Source: a virus. Taken from it: a DNA stretch of 39,016 nt. How positions within the stretch are numbered: the stretch's first letter is position 1; the number at the start of each line of letters is the position of its first letter. The stretch is from the IMG/VR virus record IMGVR_UViG_3300006734_000017, positions 1 through 39,016 of that record. One strand, written 5' to 3'. The position numbers were made by a program, and so were the translations under genes. Shown one piece after another: positions 18,929 to 38,379 of the stretch. Under the pieces are notes generated by a model. It was given only the letters and a program-made list of their open reading frames with translations, made no database searches and was not told the DNA's origin.

Positions 18929-19552
18929 TTATCCGTAGATAATTTCATCCATCGGGCCAGAGTACATGGCCTGCATCAAAGGAGAAGATGAACGCCTGGG
19001 CGACATCGCACTGGCAAGTAAAGATTCTTTTAATTGTTCTTGAACTGTTTTTTGCCTAGGTTGCATTGCATTAAGCAAAGCGCCAAATAAAGTTGCGTTT
19101 GCATTTTGTTCATTAACAGAACCAGGGTTTTCAGATGATACAGTTGGCGCCCCTGGCATGACATCTGTCAATTTGCCTTCCGGTGTTTTATATCGTCCGG
19201 TAGCCAACCACTCAAGCTGTTGGTCCGTTAAATACTTTTTGCCTTCAAGCGCTAAATGCACATGCGTGTCATGTCCTTTATCGCCTGGTCCCAGGGCTTC
19301 GTTAAATACACCTAATTGTTTTGCACGCCAACTCAGTTCACCCGTGCGTTGCTTCCAGGGAATGGGTTTGCCTCCTGCATATGCCGGTGCAACGTCAGGA
19401 CGCCAATCTCTTACGTCAATAGCCAGACCTTTTGGATGGTATCCAGTAGGAGAGTGCCCACCTCCAACACCGCCGAATGCAGGATTTTCACCAATATCTA
19501 AACCAAACTTCTTTAGGTATTTACCTATGTCAACAATAGATCTTTCAGCCAT
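18929..19552 (-). CDS. M15-type (D-Ala-D-Ala carboxypeptidase/endolysin-fold) metallopeptidase
   Basis: 207 residues from ATG 19552; upstream in-frame codons run into the terminator hairpin and are not used. The zinc site of the M15 fold is visible: GYHPKGLAIDVRDW with His39 and Asp46 (H-x6-D) and HDTHVHLAL with His97 or His99. GGHSP (His33) precedes it. It would cut peptide cross-links in the cell wall. The C-terminal 70 residues are Gln/Ser/Pro-rich and may attach it to the virion. It lies in the structural operon, giving the phage a third wall-active enzyme beside the GH24 endolysin and the tail-lysozyme-like protein. Confidence 0.75.
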   Translation of the reverse strand: MAERSIVDIGKYLKKFGLDIGENPAFGGVGGGHSPTGYHPKGLAIDVRDWRPDVAPAYAGGKPIPWKQRTGELSWRAKQLGVFNEALGPGDKGHDTHVHLALEGKKYLTDQQLEWLATGRYKTPEGKLTDVMPGAPTVSSENPGSVNEQNANATLFGALLNAMQPRQKTVQEQLKESLLASAMSPRRSSSPLMQAMYSGPMDEIIYG

Positions 19553-19579
19553 CTTATGTTTTATTTTTATTGTAAAACG

Positions 19580-19603
19580 AAAAAACCCCTGGTCTCCCAG
19601 GGG
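19580..19603 (-). terminator. Rho-independent terminator after the helix-hairpin-helix gene
   Basis: On the minus strand CCCCTGG, a GAGA loop and CCAGGGG are followed by six T. It lies 20 bases beyond the stop of the 136-residue gene. It would end or attenuate the capsid transcript before the peptidase gene. Confidence 0.85.
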
Positions 19604-19623
19604 CATTAATGATAGAAGCCTAA

Positions 19624-20034
19624 TTAAACACGGATTAAGTCTGCTGCAAACACAGCATCCCAATCAACTCTTTTGATTTGTCGCAGCTGCTCAAGATTAT
19701 TAAATCTTTCACCCGATAGTGACATCTGAAGATCTTTTATCTCCCGCGCTGTCTTCAAACCGATACCCTTGATATGATCAGCGATCATCTGCGCAGTAGC
19801 GCCGTTGAGATTCAACCGGTTATCTGGTGGAAAAGTACGTGGCTCTTCCTGCGCAGCTTTGTCTTTAACTTGAAGAGTCTTCACCTTTTTGGTGGCATCT
19901 TCGTCGGGCGTGATTTCGGTTTTATAAGCGGTATAAAGGCGACCGTCCTGATCTTCGACCATAAACCAATCGCCGTTATCCCATTCGCTTACAACCTTGA
20001 CTCGGGCTCCTGTTTTTTTGTGCTGATAAAGCAT
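19624..20034 (-). CDS. Helix-hairpin-helix protein with an SH3-like N-terminus
   Basis: 136 residues. The first 45 (YQHKKTGARVKVVSEWDNGD, then WFMVEDQDGRLYTAYKTEI) resemble a small SH3/KOW-type beta-barrel. A charged linker follows. Residues about 73-121 form a ComEA-type helix-hairpin-helix: LNLNGATAQMIADHIKGIGL with the hairpin KGIGLKTA at 89-96, then NLEQLRQIKRV. This fold binds DNA without sequence preference. Placed just after capsid genes, it could act in DNA packaging or in an ejected DNA-protein complex. The start codon is preceded by one base and an 8-bp hairpin, and a terminator follows. Confidence 0.72.
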   Translation of the reverse strand: MLYQHKKTGARVKVVSEWDNGDWFMVEDQDGRLYTAYKTEITPDEDATKKVKTLQVKDKAAQEEPRTFPPDNRLNLNGATAQMIADHIKGIGLKTAREIKDLQMSLSGERFNNLEQLRQIKRVDWDAVFAADLIRV

Positions 20035-20904: not shown

Positions 20905-22068
20905 TCAGATGCTGCCGTCGTCAGACAGGAAGCTGAATGCAGTGGTCACGAAGTCCTTGTTCAGGATCTCGAAGCCAGCATACAGTTGCCAGATCAAGAT
21001 GATGAAACGGCTGAAGTCATCGTTGTTGTTGATCAGCACCTGAGCGTTCGGGCCGCCGATACCAACACCAATCGATTGAGGACCAAAGAAGTAACCTTGT
21101 GCAACTTCTTGGCTGCTGTAAGAAGGAGAATCAGTGAAGCTTGCGCTAATGTTCTTGGTCGGGAAGTTAGTCGACTCGAAGAACTTGACACCTTCAAACT
21201 GGACGCCAGTAGGCATCACGGGCTCACCGGCCAGGAAGTAACCTTGACCAGCTTGTGGACCCATGAAGAAGCTGGCGTTGTTAGGCATCATGGGATTACC
21301 CATGTACATGCCTTGGCCAGGGCTACCAGCGTAACGAGCGATCTCACGGAAGTCAGGATCACGACGCAGGTGCATCATGAAGGTGGGATCGCAGATGCAA
21401 CGATACAGACCATCAGCAAAGGTGGGAACGTTGCGCTTACGCAGATCCTTCACCACTTCCAGGAGGTCAGTGCGCACTTGGAACTGCTGCACTTGAGCGG
21501 CATACTCGGCAGTGGTGTAAGCAATACGACCGGAAGAATCCTTGGTCTTACCGCCAGGGAAGTAGTAACCACCTTGGGTGCTGGAAGCGGCACCATTGGC
21601 TTCGGCTTTGGCGAGTTCATCAATGAACACGCGATCGCGCCAACGACGATAGTCATCAAGCAGCGTCAGGCTACCGATGGACTGGTGGAACATGTTGAGG
21701 TTACCGGTGTCCAGCAGCAGGCGCTGGGCGGTAATCAGAGTTTCACGAGCAATCTTGAAGGTCGAAGGCTGAGTAGGATCGCCCGGATCTGCGGGACCAG
21801 TGTACTCTTTCAGCACAACAAGCACTTTTTCCTTGGTGATGTTGCGGCTGTTGGCGGTACCGATTGTTTGGTCAGCAATACGCTCACGGCTGTCCTTGGT
21901 ACCAGGAGTTCCCCAGAACTTGTAGCGATCAAGCTGAACGGTTTGACCAGGCTGACGGGTGAAGTCGTGGACGACCACAGGCTCCACCGCCATTTCGGCA
22001 ATGTAAGCAGGGTGGGGACGGTAAAGTTCCGCACCTAAAATTTTGGGAAAGTCGTTATCAATGAACAC
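20905..22068 (-). CDS. Major capsid protein
   Basis: 387 residues from GTG 22068, supported by a strong GGAGGA nine bases upstream. It is expected to assemble the HK97-fold shell. It follows terminase, portal and candidate scaffold in the standard order. Visible features are a basic-to-acidic N-terminal arm (VVVHDFTRQPGQTVQLDRYK), a helical spine region (FKIARETLITAQRLLLDTGN), a P-domain-like stretch with YRCICDPTFMMHLRRDPDFR, and a C-terminal block GPNAQVLINNNDDFSRFIIL ending FEILNKDFVTTAFSF. The general style recalls N4- or P22-type capsid proteins, but I cannot assign the subfamily by eye. Confidence 0.8.
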   Translation of the reverse strand: MFIDNDFPKILGAELYRPHPAYIAEMAVEPVVVHDFTRQPGQTVQLDRYKFWGTPGTKDSRERIADQTIGTANSRNITKEKVLVVLKEYTGPADPGDPTQPSTFKIARETLITAQRLLLDTGNLNMFHQSIGSLTLLDDYRRWRDRVFIDELAKAEANGAASSTQGGYYFPGGKTKDSSGRIAYTTAEYAAQVQQFQVRTDLLEVVKDLRKRNVPTFADGLYRCICDPTFMMHLRRDPDFREIARYAGSPGQGMYMGNPMMPNNASFFMGPQAGQGYFLAGEPVMPTGVQFEGVKFFESTNFPTKNISASFTDSPSYSSQEVAQGYFFGPQSIGVGIGGPNAQVLINNNDDFSRFIILIWQLYAGFEILNKDFVTTAFSFLSDDGSI

Positions 22069-22162: not shown

Positions 22163-22184
22163 GGTAATTTATTTATTAATTACC
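22163..22184. repeat. AT-rich inverted repeat at the end of the 182-residue gene
   Basis: GGTAATT, eight bases, AATTACC, overlapping the stop codon of the 22180-22728 gene. No T-run follows on either strand. It may be a weak hairpin or an RNA-processing site between that gene and the capsid gene. Confidence 0.35.
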
Positions 22185-22728
22185 TATACTGCATCGTTGT
22201 TGCATACGGACTTACACCGTATTTGGCGTTTGCTGTATTACTAGATCCAGGGGATTCTGGATCGATAGACATACCTTGTTGGAAACCTGGAACACCCATA
22301 GAACCAGGGATAGCGCCAAGTGCTACGCCACCGAGACCAGCGGTAAGTGCAGCGGCAGGTACTAAACCAGCAGCGGCAGCCTTACCAAGACCCCTGGTAA
22401 ATTGCTGCTCCGAAGGAATAGGAATACCTACGGATCTATCGATTAAACCAAGAATGGCATTTTGTCGTTTAGACCCTTCAGGCATTCTGATTGCGGATTC
22501 TAATAAAGATTTCTCTGCAGCAACTTTGCCTTCTTTGGATGCTTTTAAAAGACTTGGGGCATATTTACCGGCAAGAGCCCGCGCACCAAGTAGGCCAGCA
22601 GCACCACCAAGGCCACCAGCTGCAGCAGCAAGTGCGGCAGAGCCTGGATCTTCACCTTGAGAAAGGGCGTACCCACCAACGCCTAAACCGGCGGCGATAG
22701 GTACACCGTATTTAAGAGTGCCACGCAT
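22180..22728 (-). CDS. Gly/Ala-rich protein with glycine-zipper segments
   Basis: 182 residues. GGAG lies seven bases before the ATG and overlaps the scaffold stop. Two long Gly/Ala-rich hydrophobic stretches (VPIAAGLGVGGYALSQG and AALAAAAGGLGGAAGLLGAR; later AAAAGLVPAAALTAGLGGVA) have GxxxG spacing typical of glycine zippers that pack in membranes. A charged helix lies between them. It lies between the candidate scaffold and the capsid gene, so a packaged internal protein that enters the host envelope is plausible. No family is recognised. Confidence 0.55.
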   Translation of the reverse strand: MRGTLKYGVPIAAGLGVGGYALSQGEDPGSAALAAAAGGLGGAAGLLGARALAGKYAPSLLKASKEGKVAAEKSLLESAIRMPEGSKRQNAILGLIDRSVGIPIPSEQQFTRGLGKAAAAGLVPAAALTAGLGGVALGAIPGSMGVPGFQQGMSIDPESPGSSNTANAKYGVSPYATTMQYR

Positions 22729-22732
22729 GGCA

Positions 22733-23689
22733 TCACTCCATCACAAACAGTTTGTTTGCGACAACTTGAGGCTGAGCTTGGTTCAGAAGACGCCAAGCTT
22801 GAGCGGGGTCTACATCCATTTGCTGCTTGAAGCTGCCCCAGAAGTTTTCAGGCTGTTGGGGAGCAGAAGCTGCGGGAGGAGCAGGAAAATCGCCATAAGC
22901 AGCTTGAGCAGGTGCGGTTGGATAACCACGGGTCTCAAGCTGAGCCTCGTTTTCGTAAACAGGGTATGGACCTTCTGGACCAAAGAACTTCAGAGTGTAA
23001 TCACTCAGAACGTCTGGATTGGTCAAAATCTCGTTGTAAGCAAGATTTTCGGTATGCTCAGTAACCGCAAACTCAGCATAATTTTGGATTAAGTTCTGTG
23101 CTTGGTGGCCCCAGGCAACAGCACTATCCAGCATTCCTTCCAGGTTTAGTGCGTACTGGTTTAGAAGGGCTGGAGCCTCCACCCCGAACGCGTCGATCAC
23201 CTGACGGCTTTCCTGGCTCAGACCCAGGTAATCCGCGATTTGCTCCAAGGAGGGATTCGAGGAAGTTTGGGAAGAGCTGGGCGATGAGGCCTGGTTGGTT
23301 GACCAAGTCTGCGCTGCCGAGTTCGGCGTAGGCTGGGCGCTGGGAAGTCCGTAATTCGCCGGGGTATACGCTGTCGTCGGAGCTGACGGTTGACCCTGGA
23401 ACGGGGATTGAACTGGTGCGCTCAGCAGGTTCACCACCTTGTTGAACGCCGATTCCCATGGATTGCTGTTGGTTGCCTCCGATTGGGATTGGGGGGCGTA
23501 CTGAGTAGGGGCGGATTGGTAACTGATATTCGGCTGAGGCGTCGCTGCCTGGTACCCCTGCTGTGCTGCTTGGTACGCCACCGGAGCTGCTTGGTAATTG
23601 CTTGCCGCTGGTGCCACGTAGCTGCTCGGAGCCACCGCCGGTTGTGCGGGGCTCGTCTGTGGGATCGATTGGACGGTAGCGTCCTGCAT
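22733..23689 (-). CDS. Candidate scaffold protein, overlapping the portal gene
   Basis: 318 residues from ATG 23689, with GGAG eight bases upstream. The first 150 residues are Ala/Gln/Pro/Tyr-rich, with YQAA repeats (YQAAPVAYQAAQQGYQAATP). Residues from about 150 form helices (LEQIADYLGLSQESRQVIDA, YALNLEGMLDSAVAWGHQAQ). The end is again Pro/Ala-rich with a short helical tail. Position between portal and capsid, low-complexity N-terminus and helical core suit a scaffold. In the YQAA repeats the bases differ only at third codon positions of this frame, which supports it as the constrained frame. Its first 566 bases also encode the portal C-terminus in another frame. Confidence 0.65.
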   Translation of the reverse strand: MQDATVQSIPQTSPAQPAVAPSSYVAPAASNYQAAPVAYQAAQQGYQAATPQPNISYQSAPTQYAPQSQSEATNSNPWESAFNKVVNLLSAPVQSPFQGQPSAPTTAYTPANYGLPSAQPTPNSAAQTWSTNQASSPSSSQTSSNPSLEQIADYLGLSQESRQVIDAFGVEAPALLNQYALNLEGMLDSAVAWGHQAQNLIQNYAEFAVTEHTENLAYNEILTNPDVLSDYTLKFFGPEGPYPVYENEAQLETRGYPTAPAQAAYGDFPAPPAASAPQQPENFWGSFKQQMDVDPAQAWRLLNQAQPQVVANKLFVME

Positions 23690-25439
23690 AACTCATCTCC
23701 TTTTGTAAGGCTTCTAAAGTTCGATACAGATATGGCGTTAAATCCAATCTTGGATCCGCAGCCATCGGAAGATCCGGAGCTTGCGGGTGAGGAGTCTGCA
23801 TCATGCCCCCCACTAGTTTTGCGAATGCAGAGTAAGCACCCTGCAATTCGTTCACCATCCTGAACGGGAACCCAGATAACATCTCGGCCCGCTCCTCATC
23901 CGTCTTAGACGGAAAGAGGTATTTCAGTGCTTCAATGCTATCAACACCTAATTCCTGGAGATTTCGAACAACAATAGAGTTATTCAAAATATCTTGTGTG
24001 GAATCTTCGTATACAGGTCCCAGCCATCTCCAAAGCATGGTGACATCACCATCTGGAATTAAACCTTGTACACCTGGAGGTATTTGTTGTGCCTCCACAC
24101 AAGCAACCATAAGTTGTTTGATCTGTGCATTGTATTGCTTTAAAGCTTCTTCATAAGCAGCAACCTCTTCCTCTTGTGCTTCACGAGAAGGAGAAATTGG
24201 TTTTTCAATACGTGCAGCCTGAGCGAGACTATCTTTAAAAAGCTGTTCTTCTTGATAAATAATTAGTTCGAGACAACGACAAATACCATGTGTATAAATC
24301 GCATTTGCTTTTTTCTTGGAAGTTGCAGAAACACGTCCAAACAAGGATTTGTATTCTGTTGCCGTTACACCAGCAGAAATGGAAAGCTCATCAACACCGC
24401 CAAGTGATGTACGAATCTCTTCTCTGTACTGACGAGCAAATGCATTTTGGTCGCCGGTGATAGCATCGGGAACGATGTAACCAACTCGGTCATTGGGCTC
24501 CAGGTTTGCAATGATCCGTGGAACACGGAGCTGACCATCAACTCCGCGCATGATTGGATCTGCTTTAAACCGTGATTGACTTAATGCTCCAAGACCAGTA
24601 AAACCTGAGTTGGCAGCAATTGATGGACGTTGTACAGCGGTATCGCCGCCCGCCTCCATCAAATCACTCTTTGGCCTAGACGAAAGAAGGGTTGGATTAC
24701 CAAAGAACTGAACGTTCTTTCGCATAGTGCGGATCATCTCGTCATGAATAACGATGTGATTAGCTAATGAGTCAAATTCACCAACACCCTCGTTGGAGAA
24801 ACCCTTGGGATTGTTAAAGATCTCAACGCATGGAATAAAACCTAAAGTATTTTTGAATGTCTTTGTACGACCCAATGCCGAATAGTTTGTTGTTTCAAAA
24901 GAAAGCTCGCCTTCAGAGTGAGTCTCTTCAATCACATCCGATTTGATTGACAAACGAATATAACGCTTTGCTCCTTGTTCAAATGCAGCACCCCCTGGCC
25001 CAAGCGTGGCGAGATTGATTCCATCTGTGGCGCCAAAACCCTTGCGAACTTTGTAGCTGTAAATAATTACGACTTCATCAAGCTCGCCGTCTACGTTGTA
25101 AAAAGAACGATATTCGTGAGAACGGAAATAATATAGGCGGTAACTGAATTTAGTTGGACGAATGTAGAAAAGACCTTTTCCATCACAAAGAAAATATTCC
25201 CAAATGGAATCGAGTCTTGTGTCTAATTTGTTGTACTTGAGAACACGATCAATAAAGTCTTTCCTTTGGCTACCAAAGTTATCTTGTGATGGAAAAAATT
25301 CAACTCCCTGGCGGATGCCAAAGAGTTTCATCTGTGCAATGTGTGATGCAATGATGCCCGTATCAACAGTCATCGACCCATCTTTTTCAAGATAGGAATC
25401 AATCATCTCCTTGAGACGAAGTTTTGCATCCATTGACAT
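23124..25439 (-). CDS. Portal protein, with a C-terminal tail overlapping the scaffold gene
   Basis: 771 residues. It is expected to form the dodecameric DNA channel at one capsid vertex and to bind the terminase. Position after terminase and before scaffold/capsid supports this, as do portal-like blocks: FIDRVLKYNKLDTRLDSIWE near the start, RKGFGATDG, and the central LGFIPCVEIFNNPKGFSNEG with HIVIHDEMIRTM. Helical segments follow (QEEEVAAYEEALKQYNAQIK). The core is about 583 residues, normal for portals. The last 188 are Ser/Gly/Pro-rich low complexity (LPSSSGGVPSSTAGVPGSD) and are read from the same DNA as the scaffold N-terminus. Confidence 0.75.
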   Translation of the reverse strand: MSMDAKLRLKEMIDSYLEKDGSMTVDTGIIASHIAQMKLFGIRQGVEFFPSQDNFGSQRKDFIDRVLKYNKLDTRLDSIWEYFLCDGKGLFYIRPTKFSYRLYYFRSHEYRSFYNVDGELDEVVIIYSYKVRKGFGATDGINLATLGPGGAAFEQGAKRYIRLSIKSDVIEETHSEGELSFETTNYSALGRTKTFKNTLGFIPCVEIFNNPKGFSNEGVGEFDSLANHIVIHDEMIRTMRKNVQFFGNPTLLSSRPKSDLMEAGGDTAVQRPSIAANSGFTGLGALSQSRFKADPIMRGVDGQLRVPRIIANLEPNDRVGYIVPDAITGDQNAFARQYREEIRTSLGGVDELSISAGVTATEYKSLFGRVSATSKKKANAIYTHGICRCLELIIYQEEQLFKDSLAQAARIEKPISPSREAQEEEVAAYEEALKQYNAQIKQLMVACVEAQQIPPGVQGLIPDGDVTMLWRWLGPVYEDSTQDILNNSIVVRNLQELGVDSIEALKYLFPSKTDEERAEMLSGFPFRMVNELQGAYSAFAKLVGGMMQTPHPQAPDLPMAADPRLDLTPYLYRTLEALQKEMSYAGRYRPIDPTDEPRTTGGGSEQLRGTSGKQLPSSSGGVPSSTAGVPGSDASAEYQLPIRPYSVRPPIPIGGNQQQSMGIGVQQGGEPAERTSSIPVPGSTVSSDDSVYPGELRTSQRPAYAELGSADLVNQPGLIAQLFPNFLESLLGANRGLPGSEPGKPSGDRRVRGGGSSPSKPVRTKPGRNAG

Positions 25440-26303: not shown

Positions 26304-26593
26304 TTTGACAAAAGCTTTTCCATAAGCTTATCAAGTTTATTGTTGATTTCGCGAAAATTGTCATGCATTTCTTGAATTTCTCTTAAGAAATCAACCTTCA
26401 AAACATATTCCATTGGCATTCGATTAATTTGATCTTCCAGAATATCAATCCGACGTTTTTGAGAACTTGTATAACTAAGCGCATTTTGAATACGTTCTTG
26501 TTGTCGATCTAAAATTTTGTTGGCCACCCAAGAACCGCCTGTTACTGCAGAGATTATAGCGGTTAGGCCAATAGCAAAAAATTCTGGTCCCAC
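26300..26593 (-). CDS. Small membrane-anchored coiled-coil protein, possible lysis protein
   Basis: 97 residues from a GTG start at 26593. One transmembrane helix (residues about 5-25, FFAIGLTAIISAVTGGSWVA) is followed by a long charged helix with heptad-like spacing (DILEDQINRMPMEYVLKVDF, then REIQEMHDNFREINNKLDKL). This arrangement fits an inner-membrane spanin-like or holin-accessory protein, or a membrane tether. It follows the large terminase gene by 29 bases and is coupled to the AbrB-like gene. A holin role is possible but is not proven by one helix. Confidence 0.55.
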   Translation of the reverse strand: MGPEFFAIGLTAIISAVTGGSWVANKILDRQQERIQNALSYTSSQKRRIDILEDQINRMPMEYVLKVDFLREIQEMHDNFREINNKLDKLMEKLLSK

Positions 26594-26622: not shown

Positions 26623-28149
26623 TCAGTAATCAAGTTGTAAATTACTTTTTTTCATTAATCCATTTACGAGCCAAACTAGAGCGTCTACACAATCGTCGTG
26701 GCCGCTTACTCCAAAATTAGTTAGCTCTTCAAACATTGCTGTGAAATTGCGGTAACGATTAAAAATAATTTTTCGATCCTCAAACATTCCCATGATTCCA
26801 CGGAAACGAGCAAGTTTATCAGCACGGAAACCTTTTACAGGATGCCAAAGAATGTTATAAAGACCTTCATTGTTTAAACAGATCCGTTTGAAATCTGCTT
26901 CTAGAGAAGCCTGGTACTGAACTGCTTCTGACCAAACATCACAAGTGGAAAAGGTTGGAAAATAATTTCCATTTTCATCTTTGCCAATAATAGACCAATC
27001 GTTCATTAATTCTTTGAGGGCATCTAGCTTTTCAAGATTACCCATGACACGCATGCGTCGATAATCAATGATATGGATTTTGTCTTCGATTCTGCCACCA
27101 AGAACGAACACCGTGTAATCATTCTTTTCTTTTGTTCCAGCGGAAAGGTCTACGCCGATTCCAAGCGTATCAAATTCCGTCGAAATTTCTGCTTTAACAA
27201 TTAACTCAGGCGCAAGAGAAAGCTCATTTTGCCTGATAATTTTATTCATGTATTGGAAAGAGAAAGCAATAGGGGCTTGCCTTTTCTTTTCTTTTAAGTA
27301 ATCCAATGACCACATCTCTGGCCAATAAGACATTTCTTCCCCGGTTTTAGGATCTGAACTGATTGCTGACAAAACAATTTGGGTCCAGTTGTTTTGTTCA
27401 TTAAACGTGGTTGCGTGAATGTCATCATGCCTAAAGCGAGTACCAAGACAGATAGCACGTGCACCTTCAAACATTGTTGGTGCAATCACCGCGTTCCAGT
27501 TTTCTTGCATCTGTTTGCGGATGTCTGGGTTGGCGATATCCGCAGCAGATTTGATGGCGTCATCAATCATCACCAGATGAGAACGCTTGGAAGTCACCGA
27601 ACCTTTTAGACCTGCAGCACAGAGTGTGAATTGTTCTTCACCAGTGGTGTCAATGCCTGCAAACTTGTGGTCAATAGACCAATACTCATTACTAGTAACG
27701 TTTTTCAGCAGACGGACTGTAGGGAAGACTTCTTGATATCGTTTGCTTTCAATAATTCGTTTGATGGTTGCAGACTTGGAACGTGCAATATCAACGGTGT
27801 AGGACAAATAAAGAATCTGCAGGGGAAGCTTGGCAGCGGTATGGATGCCAATTGCCCATGCCGTCAAAAGGCCCAGTACGGTGCTCTTGGCTGAACCACG
27901 AGGGGCAAGCAGGTCAATATTAGGCCCAGCAATTTTAATCAAGCATGAGCTGTCTTCGTTAGTGACAAAATGACGATGCCAGTCCCTATGGTGCTCTGCC
28001 GGAGGTTTATCTGCGACGTACTCACAAAAGAAGGCAAAATCTTCTCTGGCCTTCTGAAGAAGTTCTAAATTCCGTGGCTTCTTAATCTGCTGGTTTTGTG
28101 CTGCCGCTTTGGCGTTACGGCGATGCGCAAGATAAAGATAAGAAGGCAC
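26623..28149 (-). CDS. Terminase large subunit
   Basis: 508 residues from a GTG start. It is the ATP-driven motor and nuclease that packages DNA through the portal. The ATPase domain has Walker A APRGSAKST (82-90) and Walker B LVMIDD (192-197), followed by a coupling-type GTRFRHDDIH segment. The C-terminal RNase-H-like nuclease has GIGVDLSAGTK with Asp334, TCDVWSEAV with Asp404, and SGHDDCVDALVWL with Asp485, Asp486 and Asp489. Length is typical of headful or cos-type large terminases; the packaging mode cannot be told by eye. The candidate small subunit lies upstream, separated by two very small genes. Confidence 0.95.
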   Translation of the reverse strand: MPSYLYLAHRRNAKAAAQNQQIKKPRNLELLQKAREDFAFFCEYVADKPPAEHHRDWHRHFVTNEDSSCLIKIAGPNIDLLAPRGSAKSTVLGLLTAWAIGIHTAAKLPLQILYLSYTVDIARSKSATIKRIIESKRYQEVFPTVRLLKNVTSNEYWSIDHKFAGIDTTGEEQFTLCAAGLKGSVTSKRSHLVMIDDAIKSAADIANPDIRKQMQENWNAVIAPTMFEGARAICLGTRFRHDDIHATTFNEQNNWTQIVLSAISSDPKTGEEMSYWPEMWSLDYLKEKKRQAPIAFSFQYMNKIIRQNELSLAPELIVKAEISTEFDTLGIGVDLSAGTKEKNDYTVFVLGGRIEDKIHIIDYRRMRVMGNLEKLDALKELMNDWSIIGKDENGNYFPTFSTCDVWSEAVQYQASLEADFKRICLNNEGLYNILWHPVKGFRADKLARFRGIMGMFEDRKIIFNRYRNFTAMFEELTNFGVSGHDDCVDALVWLVNGLMKKSNLQLDY

Positions 28150-29775: not shown

Positions 29776-30453
29776 TTAAAAAGCAAAAGCACCAATTAGT
29801 GCATTACGGAAACTTGTTTCAGAACCAAGTTTTGCAATGTCTTTTTGACCCTTTTGACGTTCAGTCTCTTGTTTAATTCCATATTCACCCTGCAATGTGG
29901 CAACATCTCGCTCAGTTGTGCCACGAATATTCTCAACCTCTTGTAAACCCGTATTAATAATGCCTTGTAAATCAATGCGATTTTGACCTTCGATTTCTGC
30001 GACACGTGTTCCTTTCAACAAATCTTGATCAGCAATATATCTGCGTGCTTCTGCATCACGATCTGCCATATACCGAGAGGCAGCCGCAGTAATCTCCGAA
30101 GTTTTAACACTATAGCCACCTTGAATATTGGCAACATTAGCAGCTGATTGACCCTGAATTGCTGCAAGTTCTTTTTGAATATCTCCATTCAATTGCGTTA
30201 AGATCCCCGCACTTAAAACGTTGAACTCTGCTTCCGAGTAAGCGCCAGCAGCAATATTATACTTACCAATAGAAACACCCGGAGTATAATTCTGTCCAGC
30301 GGAAGGCAGGTTGCGTCCCTCCTTGGATCCCCATTGGGCGTAATGCTTGGCGCCAAATTGCTCAATTGACTGGGTTCCGCCTTTATTCCCCCAATCGTTA
30401 TATGCTGCGATTAGATCAGGGTAACTTTTTACATAAGCGGTATAATTTGCCAT
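29776..30453 (-). CDS. Virion-type protein with YxDL/HYxxWGxxEGR module
   Basis: 225 residues. The N-terminus (YTAYVKSYPDLIAAYNDWGN, then FGAKHYAQWGSKEGRNLP) is the same module found in the 959-residue protein at 9984-12863. The remainder is a long helical region with Ala/Gln/Glu heptad-like composition (LTQLNGDIQKELAAIQGQSA, and RGTTERDVATLQGEYG), probably a coiled coil. No catalytic residues. A promoter is predicted just upstream. The shared module suggests the two proteins have the same partner or the same location in the virion. Confidence 0.6.
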   Translation of the reverse strand: MANYTAYVKSYPDLIAAYNDWGNKGGTQSIEQFGAKHYAQWGSKEGRNLPSAGQNYTPGVSIGKYNIAAGAYSEAEFNVLSAGILTQLNGDIQKELAAIQGQSAANVANIQGGYSVKTSEITAAASRYMADRDAEARRYIADQDLLKGTRVAEIEGQNRIDLQGIINTGLQEVENIRGTTERDVATLQGEYGIKQETERQKGQKDIAKLGSETSFRNALIGAFAF

Positions 30454-30474
30454 GACTAATACATTAATAAAAAC

Positions 30475-30504
30475 ATTATAAATTAAAGGGTTTTAGATGG
30501 GCAA
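30475..30504 (-). promoter_or_regulatory. Predicted sigma-70-type promoter, minus strand
   Basis: On the minus strand TTGCCC (30504-30499), an 18-base spacer and a perfect TATAAT (30480-30475), with the 225-residue gene starting 22 bases beyond. It would add transcription of the packaging and capsid genes independent of the cassette to the right. Confidence 0.45.
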
Positions 30505-30514
30505 ACATTTAAAA

Positions 30515-31171
30515 TTACCCACCTAGCATTGTCATGTATTCTTGTAGGGTTGGACCAGTTTTAGCTGCTTGGATACCTTCCATAACTTTGCTGGGATTGA
30601 ATACAACTGCCTTGCTCTTATACTCTGGACTTGACATAATGGTTTTACCAAGGAAATCTTGGAAAGCTTGTCCGCTGTTGATACCTAATCCTTGTGCAGC
30701 ACTGACTAAATTTTGGTACTCAGGATCAGAGATAGTGCGTCCTAATAATTGTTCGTAGGCTAATGAAGCTGCTGGTTTATATCGATCGTAACTTTGTGTA
30801 GAAGGCATGCCCATTGGCAAGGATCCTAATTGATCGGCTTGCTTGAGGCCTTCTTTAATGTCACCACCAGTTGAACGAACAAGATCAAAAAAGGAACTGC
30901 GAGCTTCCTCTGGAGTCAGATTGCCACTAGCGATACGTGCTATATAAGACTCAAAAAAATCTGGAAGAGCTTTTTTTGTCGCTGTCTCCGCTTCCTTGCC
31001 TTGACCTACATAATAACGACCAATGTCAACGGGGTCTTTGGGAACCTTATTTTTGATGTCCTCACCGGAAAAATACTGAGTGAGTTCGTCAAGCTTTTTA
31101 GATACAGAATCTAAAGTTACCGTTTCTTTTCTTCCATAAGGGGACCATGATCCCCATTTAACATCTGACAT
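30515..31171 (-). CDS. Helical protein, weak DUF4214-like C-terminal part
   Basis: 218 residues. The C-terminal 80 (AYEQLLGRTISDPEYQNLVS, then AFQDFLGKTIMSSPEYKSK) carry the LGR...D...F..S.EY pattern of DUF4214-type modules of surface and secreted proteins; this resemblance is weak. The N-terminal part is charged and helical (DSVSKKLDELTQYFSGEDIK). No membrane segment. It belongs to the 30-38 kb cassette of small virion-type genes. Confidence 0.5.
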   Translation of the reverse strand: MSDVKWGSWSPYGRKETVTLDSVSKKLDELTQYFSGEDIKNKVPKDPVDIGRYYVGQGKEAETATKKALPDFFESYIARIASGNLTPEEARSSFFDLVRSTGGDIKEGLKQADQLGSLPMGMPSTQSYDRYKPAASLAYEQLLGRTISDPEYQNLVSAAQGLGINSGQAFQDFLGKTIMSSPEYKSKAVVFNPSKVMEGIQAAKTGPTLQEYMTMLGG

Positions 31172-31201
31172 TGGTGGCCCTCATGTTGATTATATTTTAC
31201 T

Positions 31202-31672
31202 TTAAATAAACCTGCTGAATGGATCCATCTCTTTACCATATGCTTGTTGACGGATTCCAGCAAGTTCTCTCGATAACTGTAAACGTTGTCTTGCTAAAGC
31301 ATTTGGGCTAAATGCTAAAGCGCCTTCAAGTTTTGCATCTTCAAAAGCTTTTAGGCGATCCATGGGGCCACCCTTGTATGCATCATATTGTTTGCCTGCT
31401 GCTTCCATCCCAAAACCAATCAGCGGTGCTTCACGGGAAGCTTTTTCGATGGCTTCTGCTTGTGCCTCTGCAGCAGATTTCGCTTTATCGGCTGCTTTTT
31501 TAGAGCCTGATGCACTAGCACCTCCGGCAATTGCGCTACCGCCTGCACTAATTAAACTTGCACCGATTAAGGGATCCATACCTGTACTGCCTGTATAAGA
31601 AACTGGACTACTAAGATTTTTGTAACTGGTATTAGGAATGGAACTTAAGGGTGTTCCAAAACTAGATGACAT
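31202..31672 (-). CDS. Glycine-zipper-containing small protein
   Basis: 156 residues. After a Ser/Thr-rich N-terminus, residues about 35-55 (LIGASLISAGGSAIAGGASA) form a Gly/Ala-rich hydrophobic helix with GxxxG spacing. A charged Ala/Lys/Glu helix follows (KKAADKAKSAAEAQAEAIEK), then an amphipathic stretch with Arg/Gln. A good Shine-Dalgarno (AAGGAG) precedes the ATG. It fits a packaged protein that inserts in a host membrane, by analogy with other phage ejection proteins. Confidence 0.55.
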   Translation of the reverse strand: MSSSFGTPLSSIPNTSYKNLSSPVSYTGSTGMDPLIGASLISAGGSAIAGGASASGSKKAADKAKSAAEAQAEAIEKASREAPLIGFGMEAAGKQYDAYKGGPMDRLKAFEDAKLEGALAFSPNALARQRLQLSRELAGIRQQAYGKEMDPFSRFI

Positions 31673-31689
31673 TATTATAACTCCTTAGA

Positions 31690-32139
31690 TTACGAAATCC
31701 ATTTACGATTGGCGTATGGATTATTTGCATATACACCGGCTAACAATCCTGGTGTGCGGCTAGCAATTTCAATCGCTGCTGCAGGATAAGACAAGCGGGC
31801 AATCGATTCAAACCCTTTAAGAATTTGACCGGGCAATGCAGTTAACATTTTGATTTTAGCTGCCTCTTTCCCTTCTTCCCGTCGTTGTTGGCGTACGCGT
31901 TCCCAATCTTCTAATTGACGCGTCCGTTCACGCTCATCGCGAGACTCCATATAGCGGAATAAACCTGCCATGGAAGGGTCGATTCCAGAAATTGTTGTGT
32001 AATCAAATGTTCCTGTATAACCAGGGGTCATTGGACTGGGTGTGCCAGCAAGCTGTGCCTGGAATGGGGCTGGTGAAGCCAATGAGGGAAGGCTACCCGC
32101 CAATTGAAAACCAGAAGTGGTGAACGTGTAAGGTGCCAT
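31690..32139 (-). CDS. Small virion-type protein with charged helix
   Basis: 149 residues. The first 60 are Pro/Ser/Thr/Ala-rich and flexible; the middle is a strongly charged helix (ESRDERERTRQLEDWERVRQ) that probably forms a coiled coil. The end is Leu/Ile/Ala-rich with Pro (IASRTPGLLAGVYANNP). It lies two bases after the 283-residue glycine-zipper gene. No family is recognised. Confidence 0.5.
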   Translation of the reverse strand: MAPYTFTTSGFQLAGSLPSLASPAPFQAQLAGTPSPMTPGYTGTFDYTTISGIDPSMAGLFRYMESRDERERTRQLEDWERVRQQRREEGKEAAKIKMLTALPGQILKGFESIARLSYPAAAIEIASRTPGLLAGVYANNPYANRKWIS

Positions 32140-32141
32140 GA

Positions 32142-32993
32142 TTATCCAACCGAAACGTTAGGGGCAGCAAGTGCGGTTACATATGGGTTGGTTGCAATTG
32201 CTTGACGCATAAATGCACCGCGCTCACGCTGGGCATCGAGTGTAAGGTTAATGCCACCACCTAAGACCATCTGTTGCATGTAAGCATTGTTTTGTGTATT
32301 GATTAAAGCTTGAGCACGAGCTAAATCATCGTTTTGTTCTTTCTGGACCATGGGGTACATTGCTTGGCGTTGCTTTAAATCTTCTGCGTTAATTTTCTGC
32401 AGCAGATCAATTGTGCCGCCGATGCGTGTTTGAAGAGCATTGCGTTGTTGTGTCTCGCCAAGTTCGCCAAGTTGCTGAAAATACTTCAGCTGTTGAGCAG
32501 AAGCGTTCAGAGGTAAATCACCAAAGGGCGTTGGAATGCTTACGGCTTGGGGGTTTTTCTCCAGAGCAGCCTTGGTGCCTCCAACGATTCCGCCACCGAT
32601 CATTGAACCAATTGCGGTGCCAGCAGCTGCGGTAAATGGTGCGGCTGGTCCGCCAATGGCAGCACCAATACCACCACCAATCAGGCCGCCAACGGTTGTA
32701 CCAGCAGCGCCTGCAATGTCTCCTTGAAGCAACGCAGGGACGCCTGCAAGTACAGCACCGCCACCAACAACAGCACGCTTGGGTACTTTACCAATAGCTG
32801 CGCCTGCAGCTTCTGCACCTGACAGAAGCACTTCGCCAGCTTTTCCGATTTTAACTTTACCTTCTTGGATAAGTTTTTCAAGCTGTTGACGCATATTGGC
32901 GTCGGCAAAAGCATTGGCTCCCGAAGATGAACCGGCGTACAAAGGGCTAGATAAGGGTTGTACTGGCGTTGACCAAGGATCTGGATATGCCAT
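32142..32993 (-). CDS. Glycine-zipper protein with long hydrophobic core
   Basis: 283 residues from ATG 32993; a longer reading from GTG 33041 is open but adds an unlikely N-terminus. Residues about 65-140 are a long Gly/Ala/Ile hydrophobic region (GAAGTTVGGLIGGGIGAAIG, then AAGTAIGSMIGGGIVGG) with repeated GxxxG, the pattern of glycine-zipper membrane proteins. Helical Gln-rich segments follow (LKYFQQLGELGETQQRNALQ). It is a strong candidate for an internal virion protein that forms a channel or embeds in the envelope during DNA entry. This is inference from sequence pattern. Confidence 0.6.
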   Translation of the reverse strand: MAYPDPWSTPVQPLSSPLYAGSSSGANAFADANMRQQLEKLIQEGKVKIGKAGEVLLSGAEAAGAAIGKVPKRAVVGGGAVLAGVPALLQGDIAGAAGTTVGGLIGGGIGAAIGGPAAPFTAAAGTAIGSMIGGGIVGGTKAALEKNPQAVSIPTPFGDLPLNASAQQLKYFQQLGELGETQQRNALQTRIGGTIDLLQKINAEDLKQRQAMYPMVQKEQNDDLARAQALINTQNNAYMQQMVLGGGINLTLDAQRERGAFMRQAIATNPYVTALAAPNVSVG

Positions 32994-33012
32994 TATTAAA
33001 ACGCTTTTATTT

Positions 33013-33897
33013 TTAGATTCTATCAGTACCCAACACACCATACTCAGCGGTGGTTGGAAGTTGTGATCGACTAGAAGAAGAAATTGCTTGATTAATAATA
33101 TTGCCAGTCATAATTCCACCAAGAGACCCAGCAAGTCCGGCAAGTCCTAGGCGTGTTGTCTTCGGTTGCTTAGTTGTACGTGCAGCAACGCCCAATGCAG
33201 CTGCACCACCAGCAACACCTAATGCAGAAGGAAGTGTTATTGGATAACCAAGCAGTCTTGCTTCTGGTACACCTTGTAAGTTTTCTGGTGTTGCTTTTAA
33301 AACACCAAGTAGTCCGCGATCTTGATAGTAACTGCGCAAGAAATTACCATAACGTTGTGGCGTTAAATCTGGGATATCTTTTTTAGCTTCTTCGTAAGCA
33401 AGTGGTCGACCAGTGCGTCCCAAGAAGAAACGTTCAAATGCTTCTTGGACTGGTTGTTCGGTTTCGCGACGATCTTCTGATCCTTTCTCTGCATATGTCT
33501 GTGCAAAACCTTTAGGTCGACCCGCTTCTCCAAGATTTAATAAATCATAGGCACCAGATACAGCCATTGCTGGTGCAAGAGCTGATGTCATAACCAGACC
33601 TGTTTTAAGAGGACCTAGTTTCTCTGCTGTCGTTTTACCAAGCGCCGCACTTGCAGCCATGTCGGCAAGAGCATTGGGATGATTTGCACGCCACCAAACA
33701 GTACGCGTACCGTCGTTGGTTAAATCTGTTAATAAACGTGCAGAATATGCACCCAAAAATTCAACGGGTGTTTGTCGTAAAGTAATCCCTTCTTTTGCAA
33801 GTTGTTTTTTAAAACCCGGATCAGCAACAGAAAGAGTTTGTGTTGTTCTTTTTTTCTGGAGTTCTTCTCCTGCTTTGAAGCCCGAACGATAAGACAT
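33013..33897 (-). CDS. Virion-type protein with a hydrophobic Gly/Ala segment
   Basis: 294 residues. The N-terminal 90 are mixed and basic (GFKAGEELQKKRTTQTLSVA), with WWRANHPNALADMAASAALG. Hydrophobic Gly/Ala segments appear near residues 100-120 (VMTSALAPAMAVSGAYDLL) and 225-265 (LGVAGGAAALGVAARTTKQ and RLGLAGLAGSLGGIMTG). The middle has a charged amphipathic stretch (EKGSEDRRETEQPVQEAFER). Its start shares one base with the upstream stop (TGATG). Not recognised; part of the cassette of probable internal proteins. Confidence 0.55.
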   Translation of the reverse strand: MSYRSGFKAGEELQKKRTTQTLSVADPGFKKQLAKEGITLRQTPVEFLGAYSARLLTDLTNDGTRTVWWRANHPNALADMAASAALGKTTAEKLGPLKTGLVMTSALAPAMAVSGAYDLLNLGEAGRPKGFAQTYAEKGSEDRRETEQPVQEAFERFFLGRTGRPLAYEEAKKDIPDLTPQRYGNFLRSYYQDRGLLGVLKATPENLQGVPEARLLGYPITLPSALGVAGGAAALGVAARTTKQPKTTRLGLAGLAGSLGGIMTGNIINQAISSSSRSQLPTTAEYGVLGTDRI

Positions 33898-34454
33898 CAG
33901 ATTAACCTCATGCCGGTTTGATTTAAAACCTCTTGTACTCTTGCTGGAATTGGCAATTCAGCAGAAGGATTAATGTAATTGTTTAAAAATTCAATACCAG
34001 ACATTTGAAATTGGGTGCCAGGTGAAACCGCCTGTGGTAGCTGCATTTCATTAATTACCTGGCGTTGCAACATTTGGTGGTATAAAGTTTGATCTTGTGA
34101 ACTTACAGTTGGCTCAACTGCCATACCAGGCATCAAGCCAGCAGATAAACCCGCTGACAAAAGAGATCCACCTAAGTTTGAAGCAGTTTCAAAACGAGAA
34201 TACTCAAGTGCTGGCTGATATTGACCTCCAGGTGTGCGTGTGAATTTTGTTGTTGATTGTTTTGGCGGCCTTATTTTTCTTGCCAATGCGGTCAATGGAT
34301 AAGTGACACCGAAATCAATTAACGCGGATCCAATGCCTACGCCAGGTCCACCGACCAAAGTTCCAAAGCCACCGGCCAACACACTACCGGTTCCGACATT
34401 GGCGGCAAGATCTTTATTTGAAGAAAGAAATCTACCTAAACCGGCTAACTTCAC
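33897..34454 (-). CDS. Gly/Ala-rich virion-type protein
   Basis: 185 residues. It begins MKLAGLGRFLSSNKDLAANV and has a Gly/Val-rich hydrophobic segment near residues 20-45 (TGSVLAGGFGTLVGGPGVGI), a basic stretch (LARKIRPPKQSTTKFTRTPG), and a second Gly/Leu/Ala segment (LGGSLLSAGLSAGLMPG). The C-terminus is soluble (EFLNNYINPSAELPIPAR). Stop/start overlap with the next gene indicates one operon. A membrane-active internal virion role is possible; no family was recognised. Confidence 0.55.
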   Translation of the reverse strand: MKLAGLGRFLSSNKDLAANVGTGSVLAGGFGTLVGGPGVGIGSALIDFGVTYPLTALARKIRPPKQSTTKFTRTPGGQYQPALEYSRFETASNLGGSLLSAGLSAGLMPGMAVEPTVSSQDQTLYHQMLQRQVINEMQLPQAVSPGTQFQMSGIEFLNNYINPSAELPIPARVQEVLNQTGMRLI

Positions 34455-34493
34455 TTTATTGCTTTTGACTTAAGTTTATTGTACAAGAAGTTA

Positions 34494-35087
34494 TTATTTT
34501 TTCGCTGCCTTTTTATTTTGTTGGTTGTCTTGTACTGGTACATCTGGAGATGCGCCAAGACTTCCTTTGTTTTTAGAAATTAACTGAGACACTGAAACCT
34601 TACCTTGTTGCTCTGACTCAACTTGATTTGTTGCAGACGCCATAAGGAATCCACGGGGATCTGGATTGCTGGCCCTAGGCATTGGATTTTGAATTTTCTT
34701 GTCTGCTGGAATAGTAGGACTTAAGTTGTAAGTTTCAGACCAAAGAGGATTGTAGCCCGGTTGGATTTCTGGTCTTTGTGTTGTCAATGCTCTTCCATTA
34801 ATAAAGTCATATTCTGTATTGCGATCAAAATTTGGCATTCCAGCAAATACTTCATATTGATCTGCAGTTTTACCAATAAAGTTAAGACGAGGATTCAGCG
34901 CAAGTTTGCGCGTCATCATTTTGCGTAATAAGTCAGACTGAGTAAATCTTGAGGGATTCCAAGGATATTGACCCGCGGTTGAAGGAGACTGAAAAAGTTC
35001 GTCAAAATTAAGTTGTTTCTTTTTTACAAAAGGATCTTTTGTGTAATCAATGTAACGACCTAGATCCAGGCGTGAGTCTTTAGCCAT
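34494..35087 (-). CDS. Soluble virion-type protein, unknown function
   Basis: 197 residues. MAKDSRLDLGRYIDYTKDPF is followed by a basic helical region (SDLLRKMMTRKLALNPRLNF) and a central Asn/Pro/Arg-rich segment, then a polar end with Gln/Asn/Lys (VQDNQQNKKAAKK). No hydrophobic stretch. Its start codon overlaps the stop of the 72-residue gene (shared bases at 35087), so it is in the same operon as the 1023-residue protein. Not recognised. Confidence 0.5.
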   Translation of the reverse strand: MAKDSRLDLGRYIDYTKDPFVKKKQLNFDELFQSPSTAGQYPWNPSRFTQSDLLRKMMTRKLALNPRLNFIGKTADQYEVFAGMPNFDRNTEYDFINGRALTTQRPEIQPGYNPLWSETYNLSPTIPADKKIQNPMPRASNPDPRGFLMASATNQVESEQQGKVSVSQLISKNKGSLGASPDVPVQDNQQNKKAAKK

Positions 35088-35305
35088 TAATCCTTAGCTT
35101 TTTTCTTCTTGTGCAATCCTACCAATGTCTGACGAAGCCGTGCTTGTTTGACTGTTTTTTCGTCATATTGATCAGGATTAGACAAAACATTTTCTTGTAG
35201 TTGGGCAGAAGTAATTCCCCGTCGTTTGGCTTTAGCAGTAAAGGCACCTTCCTTCATCTTCATGCCTTGAATCCACTTTTTATCTTTCTTTTTCTTTTCA
35301 GCCAT
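35087..35305 (-). CDS. Small Lys-rich phage protein
   Basis: 72 residues. MAEKKKKDKKWIQGMKMKEG, AFTAKAKRRGITSAQLQENV, then LSNPDQYDEKTVKQARLRQT and a Lys-rich end. The KWIQ.MKMKEGA...A...G pattern is found in small basic phage proteins of unknown role. It is highly positively charged and likely binds nucleic acid or an acidic surface. It lies between the 1023-residue gene and the 197-residue gene on the same strand. Confidence 0.62.
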   Translation of the reverse strand: MAEKKKKDKKWIQGMKMKEGAFTAKAKRRGITSAQLQENVLSNPDQYDEKTVKQARLRQTLVGLHKKKKAKD

Positions 35306-35307
35306 GA

Positions 35308-38300
35308 TTAGCGATTCCGACGTTTACCAGCGCGACGACCTGCTTGGGCCAGGAGTTGTTGGGTGACTACTTCCAGGTTAGACGGAAGAGGTTCAGAAGA
35401 AATACGTGTTTCTTTAGGTTCAATTTTAGCAATTTGTTCCCTTAATGCTTGCAGTTCAGCGCCAGGTCCTGTTGTTGCTGGTGATAGGCGTTGCTGTAAT
35501 TCTCCTGGGCGACGCGGCGCCAAAACACCAACGTTTGCAACACCTAGAGCTTCCTCGCCAAAGTCTTTGTACTGTTCCCAGTCAGCCTCACCTTCTCCCA
35601 TGCGAGACCACGATTCCATACTCTTAGGAGACTGGCGGATATCTAAGGATGGTGGGCCAACATACTTACGTGAGAGAGAAGGATCAACAACTGAACCACC
35701 TGAAAATCCAAGTTGTTGTGCTTCTTCTCTGGAGAGCGGATACACATCGCCAGTTTTTTGGTTAACAGTCACGAAAGACTTGCGCGATGAGCGGCTGCCA
35801 GGGCGACCGATCACACCTTCGATAAAATCAAAAGCAGTTGGCGAATCGAGCACAGGCAGTGTTACTCCCTTTTGTTCAGCCAGCATGCGATTGGCAAGCG
35901 AGCCAAGTTCTGCGTAATCTTTAATGCCAGTGGCAGTACGCAAACCATTCAGGAAGCCAGCAAGTTCACCACGTTTGATTTGGCCAGTACCACTGATAGT
36001 TTTGCCTGTTTTGGCATCTAATACTTGAAGAGGCGCCTGAACAATTGTTTCAGCTGCTTCATACACATCGCTGGTGAATTGTCCGTATTTACCTTCTCGG
36101 GTAATCTGGCCGACAGGCGGCGCACCTTGTTTTAAGGGACGTTTAACAGACATTGGTTGGGTTGTGATGTACTCAAGTTGTTGGCCAGGAGAAACAACAA
36201 GTTCTGCACCTGTTGCATCTTTTGCAATACCAATTTGATTGAGTTGGGTTAAGTCGGTAATCCCAAGTTCACCAACATTGCCGTTTTCGTCAAGCACCTG
36301 TGTTTTATTAACAAGGATTTTGTTTCCTGCCTTGGTCGTGTGTGGTGCATAGTAAAGGTTATACACAGGTTCCTGTACAAGTTCTTCTGCAACGCCACCA
36401 ACTAAACGGCCTTTTTGTGAGCCACGACCAAAACCAGGGGTCACATCAAGTTGCCCTTCAGGATTGACTGCACGCTGGAAATAAGCCGTTTCCCGTAGAT
36501 CCGCCATGAACTGATCATCGGCATAGGGACCAACAATCTTTTGGTGTGCACGTACTAGGGCACGGCCTGTCGCTTTGTATTGCTCCGCGTTCAAACGATT
36601 CTGAACAGTTGGATTGGCTTCTGCAACAGCAATGGCCCTGTTTTTATCGACCAAGAATGGTACGTCAAGGTTCATCTGCTCACCACGTTCAATTGCCTCC
36701 ACTGTTTCCTGAGGTAATACATCGCGGTACAAGACGGTTTCAGTTGTTTTCACCAGGTCGCCAGCTTCGTTTCGTGTTTCCACGTTACGCAGACGCACCG
36801 GCATGTCTAGGTCATAACTGTCAACCAAACGATTACGGCGTGCTGGACGCGTGATGCTGGATTGTTCGCCTGCAAGATGAGCACGAACTTGGTCGTCCCA
36901 GTAACCACGGAAATTGTTGATTGCTTCTTGGTATTGTTCAGACTGCATCAATGGCACAGCAGCTGTACTAACGCCACCCGTTAGACCAGTCAGTGCTTCA
37001 CTGATAGGTTCCCAAGTTTCTTCGTCATTTTGACTGCGGGTACGAACCGGCCTTGGTTGCTGAGAAGCAAATGCGGAACGTTTAATTTCTCCTTCGGGAA
37101 GAGTGACATATTTGCTTGGCAAAGCAGGACCAGCACTTCTTTTTAATGGTGAACCAGCCACTACTTCTACTGTTTGTGATCCACTGGCATACTCACCACC
37201 AATTAACCTACCAGAGCGATCAAATTCCGCTGCATTAACATCGAGTGTGCGTGCAAAGTTTTCGGGGCCAACAGTTGCAGAGTTATAGTTGGGATCCAGG
37301 AATTCTGGTTTGTTGTATTGAGCAAACGCATTAATACGCGCGTTGATTTCAAAATCATCAAGACCAGCATCATATAGTTTTTGCAGTGCAGGAGAAGTCT
37401 CCGCTGTTTGCGACCGAAACAACGAAGTTGTTTTACGACGTGCGCGTTGAGTAACTTGATCTTCCCCTGCTTCAACAGCATTGACTTGTTGATTGCGAGC
37501 TTGATTTAAAAGCTGGTCCTGAATGGAAGTAAGGTCAGTAAATGCACCAGGTTGATTGGCGCGTGTTGGGAGCGCCGTCGATGGAGCTTCCCTTTCAGGA
37601 AACTGGCCAGAACGCAATTGTTCAAAAAACTCTGCCCCAAGGACACGTTTTTCTTTTACGTCTTCTGCAGAAACTAGACGACGATATAAACCTTCGTTCT
37701 CTTTTAGGAATTGATCGACATTAAATTCACGGGCAGGAGCAGATGGCTCTGAGCGAATTTGCTCAAGCACATCATCAATTAAGGCTTCATTACCTTTGGC
37801 AATCCGTGATTGACGCGAAAGTTCAGCACCATACTCAAATGGGGCAGCACGTTCGTAATCAGCTCGATATTTCTCAATTAATTTGTCGGCAACATCAACA
37901 GTTGCCTCTGGAATTGCAGCTGCCGTGCGTTGAACAGAGGAAGCAGGTACCATTCGCCCGTGACGACGTACCATCCGCTCTTGCTTGGGTAAAGGAGAAG
38001 GTAAATCAACAGTTGCCTGGGGAATTGCTGCAACTTTTGAAGGTGCAACAGGAGCTGGCACCCCTTCTCGCCGGATTTGCTCTACAGCACCGGTTGGAAT
38101 CTTTGTTACTTGCGTCCCAGGGGCAGCAGAAGTGGTTTTTACGCCGCCACCACGCAACATACGATTACCAGCCAGGCCAGCACCAACAAGTGTGCCTAGC
38201 CCCAAGGCTGCAATACCCAAAGTTTCCAGTAAATTGGAGCTTTCTTGCGGTTGACGGACCTGATTACGCCGAAATTCCGCCACTTCCGGGGCTAATTGTG

Positions 38301-38379
38301 CCCTTTCTTCCGGATCTTCTGGGTATGGAGTCCCAGTTGCACGACTATATGCAGCAAAATCCAAGGGGGAAAGGGCCAT
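35308..38379 (-). CDS. Large virion-type protein with an N-terminal membrane-like segment
   Basis: 1023 residues, beginning MALSPLDFAAYSRATGTPYP. A Gly/Leu/Ala hydrophobic helix near residues 50-70 (LLETLGIAALGLGTLVGAGL) could cross a membrane. The rest is long, mostly soluble, charged and Gln/Pro-rich, with no catalytic motif and no clear repeats; internal stretches such as ALVRAHQKIVGPYADDQFMA appear helical. It is the first gene of the minus-strand operon. Size and position suggest an internal, ejected or structural protein. Alternatives include a tape-measure-type protein, but it lacks the usual long coiled-coil. Not recognised. Confidence 0.55.
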   Translation of the reverse strand: MALSPLDFAAYSRATGTPYPEDPEERAQLAPEVAEFRRNQVRQPQESSNLLETLGIAALGLGTLVGAGLAGNRMLRGGGVKTTSAAPGTQVTKIPTGAVEQIRREGVPAPVAPSKVAAIPQATVDLPSPLPKQERMVRRHGRMVPASSVQRTAAAIPEATVDVADKLIEKYRADYERAAPFEYGAELSRQSRIAKGNEALIDDVLEQIRSEPSAPAREFNVDQFLKENEGLYRRLVSAEDVKEKRVLGAEFFEQLRSGQFPEREAPSTALPTRANQPGAFTDLTSIQDQLLNQARNQQVNAVEAGEDQVTQRARRKTTSLFRSQTAETSPALQKLYDAGLDDFEINARINAFAQYNKPEFLDPNYNSATVGPENFARTLDVNAAEFDRSGRLIGGEYASGSQTVEVVAGSPLKRSAGPALPSKYVTLPEGEIKRSAFASQQPRPVRTRSQNDEETWEPISEALTGLTGGVSTAAVPLMQSEQYQEAINNFRGYWDDQVRAHLAGEQSSITRPARRNRLVDSYDLDMPVRLRNVETRNEAGDLVKTTETVLYRDVLPQETVEAIERGEQMNLDVPFLVDKNRAIAVAEANPTVQNRLNAEQYKATGRALVRAHQKIVGPYADDQFMADLRETAYFQRAVNPEGQLDVTPGFGRGSQKGRLVGGVAEELVQEPVYNLYYAPHTTKAGNKILVNKTQVLDENGNVGELGITDLTQLNQIGIAKDATGAELVVSPGQQLEYITTQPMSVKRPLKQGAPPVGQITREGKYGQFTSDVYEAAETIVQAPLQVLDAKTGKTISGTGQIKRGELAGFLNGLRTATGIKDYAELGSLANRMLAEQKGVTLPVLDSPTAFDFIEGVIGRPGSRSSRKSFVTVNQKTGDVYPLSREEAQQLGFSGGSVVDPSLSRKYVGPPSLDIRQSPKSMESWSRMGEGEADWEQYKDFGEEALGVANVGVLAPRRPGELQQRLSPATTGPGAELQALREQIAKIEPKETRISSEPLPSNLEVVTQQLLAQAGRRAGKRRNR

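Follow-up and report, generated by a model that had tools for sequence, protein, structure and literature searches.

Short-tailed phages lack a tail tube, sheath, tape measure and baseplate. The closest described relative of the virus studied here is Synechococcus phage S-EIV1 (KJ410740, 79 kb), a freshwater, short-tailed cyanophage from a lineage whose hallmark is a genome of about 80 kb with replication genes for DNA polymerase A and thymidylate synthase; its original description (ISME J, 2015) reportedly says in the abstract that almost no structural genes were recognisable. S-EIV1 has been listed as short-tailed or as a member of the Podoviridae (PMC7156551; PMC9382816; PMC8557907). Phages of this kind are frequent in metagenomes, where a single portal query returned at least 596 confirmed relatives, and most of their structural genes are annotated as hypothetical only.

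Ejection proteins are known from T7 (gp14, gp15 and gp16) and P22 (gp7, gp16 and gp20); as a class they diverge to 8–19% identity and carry predicted transmembrane helices (PMC8954989). Here we analyse a 39,016-base IMG/VR virus record (the window), in which a cassette of genes upstream of the terminase large subunit gene (TerL) encodes several glycine-zipper proteins and is a candidate source of such ejection proteins.

Results

Relationship of the window to S-EIV1

In one DNA query and three protein queries, S-EIV1 was the sole phage isolate that the window matched. From 38379 down to 14043, the structural genes on the minus strand have the order and strand found in S-EIV1, in a run that spans the cassette, the TerL, portal-like and capsid genes, the lysozyme gene and the gene for a conserved 520-residue protein (Table 1). 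The TerL, portal-like and capsid genes are homologous and invariant in order, and every zipper gene of the window is present in S-EIV1, again in the same order and on the same strand. Identity to S-EIV1 is 89% for the capsid protein, 81% for TerL and 75% for the portal-like protein, with 49% for 33013 and 22% for 32142. By sequence homology, the window is a fragment of the genome of an S-EIV1-like cyanophage (Caudoviricetes), amounting to about half of a genome of ~80 kb. The two phages differ in that the first cassette protein is 1023 residues long in the window and 693 in S-EIV1 (L001:22222-24303), that a single S-EIV1 gene stands in place of 30515 and 29776, and that the 508-residue TerL of the window lacks the intein (PF14890, residues 202–526) that accounts for the 846-residue length of the S-EIV1 protein (L001:12704-15244). 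A genome scan for a prophage or host returned two MAG contigs only, both uninformative.

Table 1. Features of the window; genes without a product name are called by their lowest coordinate.
Gene or product	Coordinates	Strand	Length (aa)	Remarks
35308	35308..38379	-	1023	First cassette gene; one N-terminal hydrophobic Gly/Ala segment, about aa 47-72
35087	35087..35305	-	72	Lys-rich, highly conserved, no hydrophobic segment; phrog_20603
34494	34494..35087	-	197	Conserved, no hydrophobic segment
33897	33897..34454	-	185	Glycine-zipper protein; segment about aa 22-50
33013	33013..33897	-	294	Glycine-zipper protein; most conserved zipper protein inside the cassette
32142	32142..33041	-	299	Glycine-zipper protein; strongest zipper, about aa 99-150
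31690	31690..32139	-	149	No zipper
31202	31202..31672	-	156	Hydrophobic small-xxx-small segment, aa 32-57, then Ala/Gln-rich helix; no GxxxG
30515	30515..31171	-	218	No zipper
29776	29776..30453	-	225	Coiled-coil-like, no zipper; N-terminal ~55-aa repeat
Terminase large subunit	26623..28149	-		phrog_38, PF17289
Portal-like virion protein	23124..25439	-		phrog_20475 4e-281; portal phrog_64 only 0.006
22180	22180..22728	-	182	Glycine-zipper protein, between portal-like and capsid genes
Major capsid protein, HK97 type	20905..22068	-		phrog_1357 2e-16
Peptidoglycan peptidase-like (18929)	18929..19663	-		M15-like motif by eye; several homologues with M23-type N-terminus
Phage tail lysozyme (16721)	16721..17395	-		PF18013 4e-36
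14351	14351..15913	-	520	Conserved; candidate tail (nozzle/tip) component
Repetitive fibre-like protein	1108..4551	-		Tandem repeats, 114-bp and 78-bp

Organisation of the cassette

All open reading frames named in the original prediction are present on the minus strand at the coordinates of Table 1. In the direction of transcription, the cassette runs 35308, 35087, 34494, 33897, 33013, 32142, 31690, 31202, 30515 and 29776, with 35087, 34494, 31690, 30515 and 29776 lacking a zipper feature. The five zipper candidates had been described as lying in a row; instead, three featureless genes (35087, 34494 and 31690) interrupt them, and only 33897, 33013 and 32142 are adjacent. Essentially every locus that has two neighbouring cassette genes carries them in the same orientation and order (for example 88/88, 77/77 and 73/73); the gaps between them have medians of -4 to 31 nt, and in relatives the cassette forms one block with the TerL, portal and capsid genes. 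The exception is the pair 30515/29776, whose order is kept in 47 of 90 loci because both genes map to one longer gene in S-EIV1, among others. Comparison with close relatives indicates purifying selection (Ka/Ks mostly 0.02–0.45) and, being both conserved and under such selection, the cassette ORFs are real. Conservation of 35308 is low outside its N-terminal segment; this putative large ejected or internal protein opens the cassette. For 32142, homologue N-termini suggest that the true start is likely the ATG at 32993, which would give a protein of 283 residues. The ~55-residue repeat at the N-terminus of 29776-30453 (AYVxSYxDL...HYxxWGxxEGR) is shared, at 44% identity, with 9984-12863; outside the window, the motif occurred in two other fetched loci only.

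Glycine-zipper segments and their conservation

GxxxG motifs were tested against within-protein shuffles in 38 genes. The strongest enrichment was in 32142, with 12 GxxxG where 5.1 are expected (0/500 shuffles) and six in its best hydrophobic 25-mer (0/200 shuffles); 33897 has three in one 25-mer (0/200 shuffles). Counts per 25-mer were two for 33013 (p 0.015), one for 35308 (p 0.025) and three for 22180 (p 0.04). Because 38 genes were tested, 32142 and 33897 alone stand by themselves. Glycine-zipper segments are real in 32142, 33897 and 33013, and more weakly in 35308 and 22180; the claimed GxxxG of 31202 was not borne out, its segment holding 11 small-xxx-small pairs and zero GxxxG.

Among non-redundant homologues (92% cut), the segment was counted as conserved if the protein had a hydrophobic 25-mer containing one GxxxG or more. 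The segment is kept in 45/45 homologues of 22180, where its presence had been correctly predicted, and in 50/51 of 33013, 59/61 of 32142 and 41/53 of 33897; in 35308 (17/30) and 31202 (19/42) it is found in about half. A suspected shared C-terminal motif, NPYA, does not hold across homologues.

Homology and structure searches

Pfam and PHROGs searches with single cassette proteins and with whole homologue alignments gave no informative family, and no cassette protein significantly matched a known ejection family by Pfam, PHROGs or profile comparison. One 31202 homologue gave a single match to a 'pilot protein' family (E 0.0065), and some homologues of 32142 weakly matched tail-lysin and tape-measure families; Gly/Ala composition probably explains these matches. 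Profiles of T7, P22 and P-SSP7 structural proteins were also built from viral contigs and compared by hhalign with the window proteins, without a significant match; the T7–P22 positive controls failed too, for most of the counterparts. Among 550 profile pairs, the top-ranking one matched 32142 to the zipper at the C-terminal end of P22 gp7 (E 7e-4), which is not significant after 550 tests.

Structure prediction for helical bundles had been proposed alongside the original prediction; run on 33013, AlphaFold gave a helical model (pLDDT 80.5) with membrane-length helices at residues 88–113, 222–241 and 247–276. Foldseek/VIA-align searches with this model found no solved fold and one viral homologue, the best structural match being a type IV secretion chain (Z 5.2, 127 aligned residues, rmsd 5.4 A) that is unremarkable for a helical protein. 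A PDB sequence search with the 33013 profile gave nothing convincing.

The zipper signature in phages with known ejection proteins

As a control, small-xxx-small pairs (small residues spaced four apart) were counted in hydrophobic stretches of 25 residues in the main structural proteins of T7, P22 and P-SSP7, with four or more pairs as the mark. Those reaching it included T7 gp16, P22 gp7, P22 gp16 and P-SSP7 gp16, all ejection proteins; the only others at four pairs were P22 gp10, which is borderline, and the P22 holin. The signature is neither necessary nor specific, since the ejection proteins T7 gp14, T7 gp15, P22 gp20 and P-SSP7 gp15 are without it. In the window, the mark is reached by 22180, 31202, 32142, 33897, 33013 and 35308, and by the membrane anchor of the spanin-like protein of 26300-26593, a small gene after TerL, present in most relatives, with weak lipoprotein and Rz-like spanin matches.

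Other structural and tail-related genes

Profile searches of the window recognised no tape measure, tube, sheath or baseplate gene, in agreement with the original prediction, and no adaptor or nozzle gene, while a portal-like gene was found; nor was a long coiled-coil protein of tape-measure type recognised with tube genes nearby. In control comparisons, the adaptors, nozzles, portals and capsids of T7 and P-SSP7 find each other, whereas the adaptors, nozzles and portals of T7 and P22 do not, and for this reason an unrecognised adaptor or nozzle in the window carries no weight.

The lysozyme gene 16721 and the peptidase-like gene 18929 share an operon with the cassette. Tape-measure-labelled matches of 16721 were traced to its tail-lysozyme domain. 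Among relatives of 18929 the N-terminus is swapped and the C-terminal part shared; one homologue scores above the cut-off for Pfam M23, and M23 is also the annotation of the S-EIV1 counterpart, while the window version looks M15-like by motif. The AlphaFold model of 14351 is poor (pLDDT 56.5), and its barrel at residues 114–258 matched many unrelated proteins (Z 5.7 or less). PDB sequence searches with profiles of 14351, 15916, 20074 and the portal-like protein, and with the single sequences of 18430 and 19624, returned nothing convincing. No structural protein of the lineage is better conserved than the product of 18430-18891 (88–100% identity, about capsid level or above), a candidate head-tail connector. 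The fibre-like protein had no homologue in the fetched relatives, and is therefore probably a variable tail fibre. A long ORF at 22733-23689 overlaps, in a different frame, the 3' end of the portal-like gene and is also open in S-EIV1, where the annotation covers its last 133 codons only; the probable explanations are a scaffold gene that starts internally or a genuine overlap.

Discussion

By analogy with T7 and P22, we consider it reasonably probable that the window derives from an S-EIV1-like short-tailed phage in which 22180 and the genes of the cassette upstream of TerL code for internal virion ('ejection') proteins. The suggestion that these are internal or ejected proteins survives as the best inference because fixed gene order within a structural operon, conserved membrane-type segments and the podovirus signature coincide, with the qualification that no known ejection family was matched. 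Most likely, several of the cassette proteins are ejected internal proteins that would form a membrane channel. We infer a sequence of events in which the cassette proteins and 22180 would be packaged in the head near the portal and, on attachment, would leave through the portal and short tail ahead of the DNA, aided by the virion-associated tail lysozyme 16721 and the peptidase 18929. Their Gly/Ala-zipper helices may then insert into host membranes and oligomerise by helix packing to give a channel for DNA, working in the manner of T7 gp14/gp15/gp16 or P22 gp7/gp16/gp20.

The likeness to these systems is partial. T7 gp16 has a Gly/Ala hydrophobic segment like those of the window and would be expected to play a comparable role, but it is one large multi-domain protein, whereas the window distributes such segments among several proteins, most of them smaller, and encodes its hydrolases separately. 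The hydrophobic small-residue segments of P22 gp7 and gp16 are likewise comparable to those of the zipper proteins, although gp7, gp16 and gp20 show no significant homology to the cassette; the profile of 32142 matches the zipper of gp7 weakly. Ejection genes come after the tail genes in both T7 and P22, whereas the cassette lies upstream of TerL. This position counts against the ejection-protein reading, as do the lack of a match to a known ejection family, the number of zipper proteins (more than the usual one or two) and the fact that holins and tape measures can carry the signature; some cassette members may instead be lysis or capsid proteins.

The zipper proteins could accordingly be a mixture, some being holin-like lysis or membrane proteins, or capsid- or prohead-associated proteins made in the infected cell, with one or two ejected. 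In favour of this, the rest of the window yielded no recognisable holin, the holin of P22 is itself picked up by the zipper metric, and 22180 sits between the portal-like and capsid genes, the usual seat of scaffold or decoration proteins. However, 33013, 32142 and 35308 (283–1023 residues) have long soluble parts, unlike typical holins, and nearly all relatives keep these genes firmly within the structural operon, so that we regard a mixture as somewhat unlikely. A split tape measure or tail-tip pore protein, of which the zipper proteins would be pieces in a phage with a longer non-contractile tail, would fit the Gly-rich hydrophobic segments that tape measures carry and the few 32142 homologues that match tape-measure families; but neither a long coiled-coil tape measure nor a tube protein was recognised, and with S-EIV1 listed as short-tailed (PMC7156551; PMC9382816; PMC8557907) we find this highly improbable.

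The same listing speaks against a phage that is tail-less, or in which a delivery tube of many small zipper proteins replaces adaptor, nozzle and tail. That reading draws on the unrecognised adaptor, nozzle, tube, sheath and tape measure genes, on the many separate zipper genes and on reports of 'tail-less' cyanophages such as PA-SR01 and PaV-LD, yet the window holds a tail lysozyme and a fibre-like gene, and the absences are uninformative in about half of a genome when T7–P22 profile comparison itself fails; we judge it very unlikely. The lack of recognisable tail genes is thus not evidence for a tail-less particle. Absence of tube, sheath, tape measure and baseplate genes is what is expected since S-EIV1 is described as short-tailed, and the proposal of an unusual DNA-delivery system in place of a classic tail is not upheld. 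A new mode of delivery is not indicated; this is a known type of phage, poorly described and unusually rich in zipper proteins.

Within the ejection-protein reading, S-EIV1-like phages, widespread in metagenomes from aquatic habitats, would have a third independent type of ejectosome if their machine consisted of five or six distinct glycine-zipper proteins with no relation to the T7 and P22 sets, a proposal that we hold to be unlikely. The conserved set of probable ejection proteins narrows the candidates for virion proteomics to a few, and offers a model, open to testing, of how these phages may cross the cyanobacterial envelope.
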